Shown here: in pieces, positions 1-58,843 of the stretch
How positions within the stretch are numbered: the stretch's first letter is position 1
How the letters are laid out: every line of letters starts with the position of its first letter
Assembly: GCF_030296555.1 (NCBI RefSeq)
Contig: NZ_AP027728.1
Span: forward strand, 868,001 to 932,000
DNA length: 64,000 nt
Reading direction: 5' to 3'
DNA from: Microbacterium suwonense
GTDB lineage: Bacteria > Actinomycetota > Actinomycetes > Actinomycetales > Microbacteriaceae
The notes under the pieces: model-generated
Seen by the model: only the letters and a program-made list of their open reading frames with translations
Told to the model about the DNA's origin: nothing
The model's database searches: none
Position numbers and translations under genes: made by a program

Positions 1-2490
1 ATGGAGACCGTAGAGCATCTGGTGCGCACCGGCTACATCACCGGGATCTCTCCCGAGCAGGCGGTGTACAACGTCATCCATGCGCTCGGCAAGGGCGTGC
101 TCAAGATCATGTCGAAGATGGGCATCTCCACGGTGTCGTCCTACGCCGGGGCGCAGGTGTTCGAGGCGATCGGCCTGAGCCAGGAGCTGGTGGATGCCTA
201 CTTCACCGGCACCGAGACCAAGCTCGGCGGCATCGGGATCGAGGACGTGTTCGCCGAGAACCAGGCGCGGCACGACTTCGCCTATCCCGAGGACGAGGCC
301 GCACGGGCCCACGAGCGCCTCTGGACCGGAGGCGAGTACCAGTGGCGCCGCGACGGATCACCGCACCTGTTCAACCCCGATACGGTCTTCCGGCTGCAGC
401 ACTCCACGCGTACCCGCCGGTACGACATCTTCCGCGAGTACACCGCGCTGGTCGACGATCAGTCCCGTGAGCTGAAGACGCTGCGCGGCCTGTTCGAGCT
501 GCGCGTCGGAGAACGCCCTCCCGTGCCGCTGGACGAGGTGGAGCCGGTCAGTGCGATCGTGAAAAGGTTCTCGACAGGTGCCATGAGCTACGGCTCGATC
601 TCGCAGGAGGCGCACGAGACTCTCGCGATCGCGATGAACCGCCTCGGCGGCAAGTCCAACACCGGCGAGGGCGGTGAGGATGCCGAGCGTCTGGTCGATC
701 CGGAGCGTCGCAGCGCCATCAAGCAGGTGGCATCCGGGCGGTTCGGCGTGACCAGCCAATACCTGACCGAGGCCACCGATCTGCAGATCAAGCTCGCGCA
801 GGGCGCCAAACCGGGGAGGGCGGGCAGCTGCCGCCGCAGAAGGTGTACCCGTGGGTGGCGCGCACCAGACATGCGACACCCGGGGTGGGACTGATCTCCC
901 CGCCGCCGCACCACGACATCTATTCGATCGAAGACCTCAAGCAGCTCATCTTCGACCTGAAGCGCGCCAATCCCAACGCACGGATCCACACCAAGCTGGT
1001 CAGCCAGTCGGGTATCGGAGCGGTCGCCGCAGGGGTCGCCAAGGCGCTCAGCGACGTCATCCTCGTCGCCGGCCATGACGGCGGCACCGGGGCGAGCCCC
1101 TGAACTCGCTCAAGCACGCGGGCACGCCCTGGGAGCTCGGCCTGGCCGAGACTCAGCAGACGCTCATGCTCAACAGCATGCGCGACCGCGTGGTGGTGCA
1201 GGTCGACGGTCAGCTCAAGACCGGACGCGACGTGATCATCGGCGCGCTGCTGGGCGCCGAGGAATTCGGCTTCGCCACGGCGCCGCTCGTGGTCAGCGGA
1301 TGCATCATGATGCGGGTGTGCCACCTGGACACGTGTCCGGTCGGGGTCGCGACCCAGAATCCGGTGCTGCGGGCGCGGTTCACCGGAAAGCCGGAGTTCG
1401 TCGTCAACTTCATGGAGTTCATCGCGGAAGAGGTGCGAGAGCACCTCGCCGCGCTCGGATTCCGGTCGCTGGACGAGATCATCGGCCGTGTCGACCTGCT
1501 GAGGACGGATGCCGCGGTGCACCACTGGAAGAGCGCTGGGCTCGACCTCGCGCCGATCCTCGAGGGCCCGGTGTTCCCCGCCGCCGAACCGCGCAAGAGC
1601 AGCCGCCCGCAGGATCATGAGCTGCACAAGCACTTCGACGCCGAACTGATCGCGATGTCCGGTGACGCGCTCGAGAACGCCGATCCGGTGCGCATCGATC
1701 TGCCGATCCGCAACACCGAACGCGCTGTGGGGACGATGCTCGGCCACCACGTGACGACCCGCTACGGCGCCGCCGGGCTGCCCAGGAGACGATCGACATC
1801 ACCCTGCGGGGGACCGCGGGACAGTCCCTCGGCGCCTTCCTGCCCGCCGGCATCATCCTGCGGCTGGAAGGAGATGCGAACGACTACGTCGGCAAGGGAC
1901 TCTCCGGGGGCGACATCGTGATCCGCCCGCCGCGGGAGGCCGCCTTCGAACCGCAGCTGAACGTGATCGCCGGGAATGTGATCGGCTACGGGGCCACGGG
2001 TGGTTCGATGTTCATCTCCGGGGTCGTGGGGGAGAGGTTCCTGGTGCGCAACTCGGGGGCGACCGCCGTCGTCGAGGGCGTGGGCGACCACGCGCTCGAG
2101 TACATGACCGGCGGCGTCGCGGTGATCCTGGGCCGCACCGGCCGCAACCTCGGAGCCGGCATGTCCGGCGGTGTCGCATACGTGCACGGACTGCAGGAGG
2201 AGCAGGTCAACGCAGAGGCGCTGCACAACGGCGAACTGCGCCTCGAGGGGCTGGACGACGACGATGCAGCAGCCCTGCGCGCGCTGCTCACCGAGCATGT
2301 CGAACGCACCGGGTCGCCGCTGGCATCCGATCTTCTGAACGCCGCCGACGCGCTGCGCACCGCTTTCGTCAAAGTGCTGCCGCGCGACTACGCGGCGGTG
2401 CAGGAGATCCGCCGTGAGGCGCAGGCCGCCGGCGACGATCCCGACGGCGACAGAGCATGGAACCGGATCCTGGAGGTGACCCGTGGCTGA
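1..2490 (+). CDS. gltB: Glutamate synthase large subunit (5' partial, three frameshifts)
   Basis: This is the C-terminal half of the NADPH-dependent glutamate synthase alpha chain, which makes glutamate from glutamine and 2-oxoglutarate. The N-terminal amidotransferase domain lies upstream of the window, so the first ATG is internal. The FMN/synthase domain and the 3Fe-4S stretch (CHLDTCPVG near 1320) are visible, followed by the C-terminal GXGXG beta-helix domain ([13 protein letters not shown] near 1984). The reading frame breaks three times: GGGG at 813-816, CCCC at 1097-1100 and CCC at 1781-1783. Adding one base at each run restores continuous family sequence, and the total length then divides by three. 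I infer sequencing errors rather than a dead gene. The stop overlaps the gltD start by 8 bp, so the two are one operon. Confidence 0.93.
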
Positions 2491-57731: not shown

Positions 57732-58843
57732 TCACGCCTCCTCGAAGGTCGCCAGATACGCGGCGTACTCGTCGCGCTCCCGCTCCAGCCCGGAGTGCGG
57801 CTCGGCATAGACGCCGTCGAAGACCGCGAGCGCCGGCCGGGTCTTCATTCCCAGGCACGTGGCGCGCATCTGCCGTGCCATCTCGTCGGCCTGCGCCTGT
57901 ACGGCGTCGAGGTGTTCCTGCGGCAGCTCACCGGCCGCACGCAGGTGGGCTTCCAGACGCGTGATCGGGTCACGTCGTCGCCACTGCTCCAGCTCGGCGT
58001 CGTCCCGGTAGCGCTTGGGGTCGTCTGCGGTGGTGTGCGGACCCATCCGGTAGGTCACCGCCTCGAGATAGGCGGGGCCCTTGCCGGAACGCGCGTGGTC
58101 GAGCGCCCAGCGCATGGCGGCCAGGCAGGCGACCACGTCATTGCCGTCGACGCGCAGGCTCGGGATGCCGAAGCCGGGGGCGCGGCCCGCGAGGGGAACT
58201 GCGACTGCAACCCGACCGGCTCCGAGATCGCCCAGTGGTTGTTCTGACAGACGAACACCACCGGCGCGCGGTACGACGAGGCGAAGATCATCGCTTCGTT
58301 GACATCGCCCTGGCTGGTGGCGCCATCGCCGAAGTAAGTGACCGCCACCTCATCCGCACCGTCGTGCTGGATGCCCATGGCGTAGCCGACCGCATGCAGG
58401 GTCTGCGCACCGATGATGATCTGCAGCGGTGCGATCCGCAGTTCGGCGGGGTCGTAAGCCGCGCCCTCTTCGCCGCGCCACATGCGCACGTAGTCGCCCG
58501 GTTGCGCGCCGCGGCTGTACATGACGCCGGTCTCGCGATAGCTCGGGAACACGAAGTCGCGCGCCTCCAGCGCGCGGCCGGTGCCGATCTGGGCAGCCTC
58601 CTGGCCGTTGCACGGTGCCCACAACCCGAGCTGCCCCTGACGCTGCAGCGCGACGCCTTCGGCATCGATGCGCCGCAGCACGACCATGTCCCGGTGCAGA
58701 TCTCGCAGCAGCGAGAAGTCGAGGTCCTCGACATAGCGATCGAGCTGTGGATTCGGCATCCGCGTGCCGTCCGGAGCGATGATGCGCTCGATGAGCTCGA
58801 GATCGCTCTGCGTGTCTGTGATCGGTGAGATATGCGGTGACAT
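57732..58843 (-). CDS. bkdA: 2-oxoacid dehydrogenase E1 alpha subunit (one frameshift)
   Basis: An E1 alpha chain of about 370 aa. The thiamine-diphosphate motif begins YFGDGATSQGDVNEAM and ends VFVCQNNHWAIS. The frame slips at GGGG 58193-58196 (CCCC in the coding sense); one more base turns QSQFPSRAAP into QSQFPLAGRAPGFGIPSLRVDGNDVVACLAAM and joins the C-terminal half. AGGAGG precedes the ATG at 58843. It is the first gene of bkdA-bkdB-bkdC and faces an Lrp gene, the usual bkd activator family. Confidence 0.9.

Follow-up and report, generated by a model that had tools for sequence, protein, structure and literature searches.

The window analysed here, by which we mean the whole 64-kb stretch under study, spans positions 868001-932000 of contig NZ_AP027728.1 (C1 of genome G000) in Microbacterium suwonense assembly GCF_030296555.1. 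It carries a series of genes, among them gltB and polA, whose reading frames are interrupted, and the subject of this report is the nature of these breaks. An earlier note, made from the letters alone, had counted about 15 genes broken by base losses and had considered incomplete under-calling of homopolymers the likely cause. The genome consists of one contig of 3,163,981 bases, with completeness of 96.14% and contamination of 3.88%; among 22 other genomes of the genus, completeness is at least 99% in 20 and contamination at most 1% in 19.

The breaks were located by frame-aware alignment of reference open reading frames (ORFs) from relatives to the window, the references including some overlapping loci of one genome and thus not all being independent. 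This yielded 22 clusters of frame changes. Fourteen were backed by 4-33 references each and all 14 belonged to the -1 class, with protein identity to the best reference of 62-94% on either side of the break, while the other eight, with one or two references each, were dropped as noise. A base-level alignment of the window was also made with four genomes, the nearest of those fetched: G048 and G208 (about 83% identical over 5 kb), and G182 and G144 (about 80%); 160 of 366 genomes were left unscored in choosing them, so that a nearer relative may exist. The base-level alignment confirmed the 14 breaks and added a UvrA-like gene and the N-terminus of an MFS transporter. Gene names were checked on the open pieces using Pfam and NCBIfam. 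The places are listed below by window coordinate, with the number of supporting reference ORFs and of agreeing near relatives among those that cover each place; the -1 and +1 classes of the UvrA-like gene are those of a hidden Markov model (HMM) described afterwards.

813-816, + strand: gltB (glutamate synthase large subunit), first break; one base fewer; 14 references, -1 class; 2 of 2 near relatives; upstream piece matched by Pfam Glu_synthase.
1097-1100, + strand: gltB, second break; one base fewer; 15 references; 2 of 2 near relatives.
1778-1787, + strand: gltB, third break; one base fewer, exact place ambiguous; 18 references; 2 of 2 near relatives.
9309-9321, + strand: polA (DNA polymerase I), near the C-terminal end; one base fewer; 33 references; 3 of 3 near relatives; upstream piece matched by NCBIfam DNA polymerase I; missed by the HMM.
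14522-14525, + strand: VOC-family protein, frame switch read from ORFs only; Pfam matches the first piece weakly and the second not at all.
15973-15985 (near 15979), - strand: MFS transporter N-terminus; two bases fewer against G048 and G208, and also two in the G182 alignment; MFS families (NCBIfam).
21470-21473, - strand: UvrA-like ABC protein, first break; one base fewer; 3 of 3 near relatives; HMM -1; Pfam ABC_tran and UvrA_DNA-bind.
21660-21668 (near 21665), - strand: UvrA-like protein, second break; two bases fewer, frame returns; 3 of 3 near relatives; HMM +1 class.
27004-27034, + strand: GDPD (glycerophosphodiester phosphodiesterase); -1 class; 20 references; frame class shared by 4 of 4 near relatives, three of which differ by exactly one base; Pfam GDPD.
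29594-29605, - strand: HelY-like DEAD/DEAH helicase; one base fewer, within the run or next to it; 24 references; 4 of 4 near relatives; helicase families (NCBIfam).
38528-38533, - strand: uppP/BacA family undecaprenyl-diphosphatase; one base fewer; 5 references; 4 of 4 near relatives; Pfam BacA; relatives hold intact copies.
43295-43301, - strand: VIT1 family protein (ferritin-VIT of the earlier note); -1 class; 6 references; frame class shared by 4 of 4 near relatives, three of which differ by exactly one base; Pfam VIT1.
44565-44571, - strand: gene previously named helicase; one base fewer; 5 references, the best at 91-92% identity; 4 of 4 near relatives; tested piece without a Pfam match.
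47473-47477, + strand: Sir2 family protein; one base fewer; 4 references; 4 of 4 near relatives; Pfam SIR2.
50934-50940, - strand: acyl-CoA dehydrogenase; one base fewer; 4 references; 4 of 4 near relatives; NCBIfam.
52096-52109, - strand: biotin-carboxylase-type alpha subunit; one base fewer; 9 references; 4 of 4 near relatives; Pfam Biotin_carb_N.
53977-53981, - strand: carboxyltransferase beta subunit; one base fewer; 7 references; 4 of 4 near relatives; NCBIfam mmdA.
58192-58196, - strand: bkdA-like 2-oxo-acid dehydrogenase E1 alpha; one base fewer; 5 references; 4 of 4 near relatives; NCBIfam PDH E1 alpha.

The earlier count of about 15 broken genes is thus well founded, with 17 of 18 places in 15 genes backed by related genomes; the remaining place, in the VOC-family gene, lies outside the coverage of the near relatives. 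All 17 backed places are losses relative to the relatives, 15 of the -1 class and two of two bases. At 1783 and 29603 the gap can also be placed in an adjacent run. One homolog had aligned to the UvrA-like gene in a single frame, raising the possibility that this gene is unbroken, which was ruled out by the two losses seen at the base level; the frame is open overall because the one-base and two-base losses sum to three.

To estimate the extent of such breaks along the chromosome, a seven-state codon-phase HMM was trained on long ORFs of relatives, and a break was called clean when no natural stop lay nearby. In the window the HMM found 13 of the 14 well-backed breaks, 10 of them clean, and reported 11 clean breaks of -1 and one of +1. 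Twenty further stretches, spaced evenly along the same chromosome (400 kb), gave 44 clean breaks of -1 and four of +1, compared with two of each in 400 kb of control sequence from G021, G004 and G015 of the same genus, which was kept out of the training, with G021 supplying stretches to both sets. The syntenic stretches of relatives (350 kb), on which the HMM was trained and which are therefore in-sample, held one clean break. Frame changes with a natural stop nearby, as expected from overlapping genes, were about equally frequent in the two 400-kb sets (133 in M. suwonense and 127 in the controls), and therefore the HMM is not simply noisier on this genome and the excess of clean breaks is specific. 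Extrapolation from the 44 breaks in 400 kb and the recall of 10 of 14 suggests about 490 such breaks in the 3.16-Mb genome. At two of the four clean +1 breaks in the 400-kb sample a start codon adjoins the switch, and these two may mark boundaries between genes.

Base-level alignment revealed 30 places where a frame-changing gap is common to all covering near relatives, of which 17 are the listed breaks. The other 13 are mixed in sign and size, gains included, and none falls at any of the 12 breaks that the HMM calls clean in the window. Ten of them (5604, 6325, 11860, 23075, 30943, 47147, 48659, 51536, 51608 and 51675) are probably intergenic or poorly aligned; the remaining three, at 5467, 5494 and 40660, were looked at individually.

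We named the genes affected in the 400-kb sample by searching NCBIfam with 40 pieces representing 42 of the 44 clean -1 breaks, one side per break, two pieces of 98 and 254 aa being omitted; 31 of the 40 pieces gave a match at E up to 1e-8. The broken genes include rpoA, pheT, murA, D-Ala-D-Ala ligase, smc, purF, argB, thiL, polyphosphate kinase and dnaJ. In M. suwonense rpoA lies in two pieces in different frames, with the break falling within the N-terminal domain, while it is undivided in all 19 other genomes where it was matched (two gave no match). Likewise, pheT is in two pieces here and undivided in 20 of 21 other genomes, the exception being spread over two contigs, and murA is in two pieces here and in one full piece in all 21 others. 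No second copy of rpoA, pheT or murA was found in the genome in those searches. A cell whose sole rpoA is broken in the N-terminal domain, or which is without its sole phenylalanyl-tRNA synthetase beta subunit, is not viable. We take this as the decisive test: the breaks are not in the cell, because those in rpoA and pheT would be lethal.

These results bear directly on a hypermutable lineage, in which a repair-deficient strain would truly have lost the bases to replication slippage at G/C runs. Replication slippage favours runs and rises with run length, and polA itself appears broken, though this break is among the suspect calls. G/C runs of 4-6, however, are poor slippage targets, and slippage should also insert, whereas clean -1 and +1 breaks stand at 44 to 4 in the sample, with the +1 count near the control level of 2. 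Moreover, rpoA, pheT and murA would be inactive, and nucS, the actinobacterial mismatch-repair gene and the one repair gene surveyed, is present with its domain in an open frame of 238 aa. Hypermutation had earlier been put down as the less likely alternative; given the split essential genes and the few insertions, we reject it as extremely improbable.

We next consider the sequence context that would be expected of losses from the assembly consensus. A G/C run of at least 4 lies within 15 bases of 43 of the 55 clean -1 breaks, compared with 15.5% of random coding places. Here the nearest longest run was counted at the length it has now, and some of these runs may be near by chance. By present length, 26 breaks are at runs of 4 and 18 at runs of 5 (28 and 15 with a narrower cut), and the coding sequence of the 464 kb holds 440 intact runs of 5 and about six of 6 or more. 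If each run was one base longer, about one in eighteen of the five-runs and most of the six-runs appear shortened; this assumption makes the run-length dependence of the breaks indirect. It had also been remarked that essential genes such as polA are broken while other runs of five G or C are intact; the polA break is confirmed, and 440 five-runs are intact.

The base that follows the run, read on the G strand, also differs between broken and intact places. At the breaks it is A in 26 cases, T in 12, C in 4 and unreadable in one, while five-runs in relatives are followed by A in 41%, C in 36% and T in 23%. For runs now 4 long, the numbers of breaks and of intact five-runs are 18 and 138 before A, 7 and 100 before T, and 1 and 202 before C, and the difference between A and C is pronounced (Fisher p = 2e-6). 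Runs now 5 long give 9 breaks before A, 5 before T and 4 before C. An earlier remark that many of the restored sites share the product GGGGAG is in line with these counts, as runs before A are affected more than runs before C. The preference for A or T over C after the G run is a new detail, which might identify the basecaller.

A fixed motif that loses one of its inner bases, such as a methylated GGGCGAG, was considered as a different source of breaks and rejected, as GGGCGAG is not depleted in the window (40 in 64 kb, compared with 32-43 in 70 kb in each of five relatives). Comparison of 6-mers with the syntenic stretches of five relatives showed CTGCAG and CAGCAG to be about twice as frequent in the window, and CCGCGG and CGGACG about half as frequent.

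Untranslated genes were compared as well. In a trimmed and oriented alignment of 23S rRNA genes, which used 13 of 21 other full-length copies and left out eight on short loci, one G run has 5 G in both M. suwonense copies and 6 G in all 13 aligned copies, from eight genomes. The shortened run fits a systematic error but may also be a natural difference. The tRNA-Leu(GAG) gene at 40645-40729 was examined as a further error, since it lacks a base at 40660 in the D-loop region relative to all four near relatives; the missing base is not at a G/C run, and tRNA-Leu(CAA) at 5517-5600 has the same short form, so that the short form of tRNA-Leu(GAG) is probably natural and this candidate was discarded. 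A terminator downstream of pyk, described earlier as having five G against four C, proved ambiguous, with 4 G against 4 C in the two near relatives aligned there.

Taken together, the gene breaks are, as judged by comparison of sequences, almost certainly systematic consensus errors of the assembly, of the homopolymer under-calling type, and absent from the organism. The data show the genome-wide extent in the sample, the strong excess of losses, the G/C-run context, the dependence on the neighbouring base and the splitting of essential genes. These findings bear out the earlier proposal of under-calling, which accounts for almost all that was tested and with which the shortened 23S G run would be consistent. 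In the proposed pathway, single bases would have been dropped from the assembly consensus, mostly at short G/C runs. The loss would apparently be more frequent with a longer run, and would occur mainly where the G run, read on the G strand, precedes A or T. We infer that the errors stem from the basecalling, or from the building of the consensus, of an assembly made with long reads only, the use of long reads only being suggested by the single 3.16-Mb contig together with the type of error.

Several observations weigh against this reading. Twelve of the 55 clean -1 breaks lack a G/C run of at least 4 within 15 bases, and rpoC is intact, so that not every essential gene is broken. The breaks also include four six-runs before C. 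The A/C ratio of the intact five-runs (0.68), though low, lies inside the range of the relatives (0.62-1.83), and in the stretches counted six-runs are as scarce in the two nearest relatives as in M. suwonense. In the 23S rRNA genes both copies agree, which demands either a systematic error or a real difference, and five other indel columns specific to this genome look natural. Finally, the statement that one extra G or C restores the family sequence holds in part: the losses are confirmed, but at 1098, 43297, 50936, 52107 and 58194 two short runs are separated by a different base in most or all of the near relatives, so that the letter lost at these five places may be other than one of a homopolymer.

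Alternatively, the breaks could be real and rescued by recoding, the proteins being restored at G/C runs by frameshifting of the ribosome or by slippage in transcription. Such a process is consistent with breaks at short runs with a preferred neighbour and with the codon-level constraint that persists beyond the breaks. It would nevertheless need to act efficiently in hundreds of genes, by extrapolation, while sparing the 440 intact five-runs, and it leaves unexplained why the 23S rRNA, which is not translated, has a shorter run; intact forms are also the rule in relatives. We regard rescue of this kind as scarcely credible. The more specific version, in which genome-wide read-through occurs by slippage at G runs before A or T, would be recoding on a scale not known from any free-living bacterium, and has an equally slight chance of being correct. 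Ordinary pseudogene decay of individual genes in the lineage, in favour of which the GDPD, sirtuin, VOC and MFS genes are likely dispensable, is most improbable as well, as varied lesions and relaxed constraint would be expected, whereas the losses are single (two-base at two places) in conserved frames, identity to the best reference stays at 62-94% on both sides of the breaks, and essential genes are also broken.

Errors in the consensus are in keeping with what has been described for nanopore sequencing. The Homopolish report describes systematic errors left by polishing in nanopore-only assemblies, mainly homopolymer indels that shift coding frames (PMC8011154). The M. suwonense breaks resemble these in both respects, and differ in that they are losses at G/C runs with a dependence on the next base, measured here without reads. 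In a second study, R9.4.1-type consensus sequences contain homopolymer insertions and deletions that lead to frameshifts in gene calling, while R10.4 calls homopolymers better and short-read polishing is no longer needed (PMC9262707). Homopolymer indels break genes in both cases, and this genome is likened to R9.4.1-type data by the type of error alone. A third study reports that raised pseudogene counts mark poor assemblies and that many such pseudogenes are really genes (PMC11017572); spurious pseudogenes are common to that work and ours, but counts were compared across assemblies there, while single places are traced here.

Three other features of the window were recorded. Opposite polA, on the - strand at 9264-11411, lies an open frame of 715 aa whose translation matches other Microbacteriaceae, presumably due to the conserved sense gene, and which is an annotation trap; among its ten best-placed named matching loci, eight are labelled Microbacterium. 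At 16528-17079, between two stretches unmatched among the reference ORFs, is a small protein with an AAA/zeta-toxin-like kinase domain. In the region 60792-64000 the GC content falls to 0.61 beside tRNA-Arg(TCT) and tRNA-His, and a protein with a recombinase zinc-ribbon domain is encoded at 61651-62760; this region looks like an integrated element at tRNA genes.

Comparing the frame breaks of a phase model with same-genus controls, together with a few essential genes, constitutes a cheap test of an assembly that requires no reads. For M. suwonense, the broken genes are, as biology, not a real feature. The assembly may carry about 490 false breaks, and its genes may be misread as pseudogenes, as split or as lost; claims drawn from this genome about lost genes, hypermutation or truncated proteins would need support from reads first.

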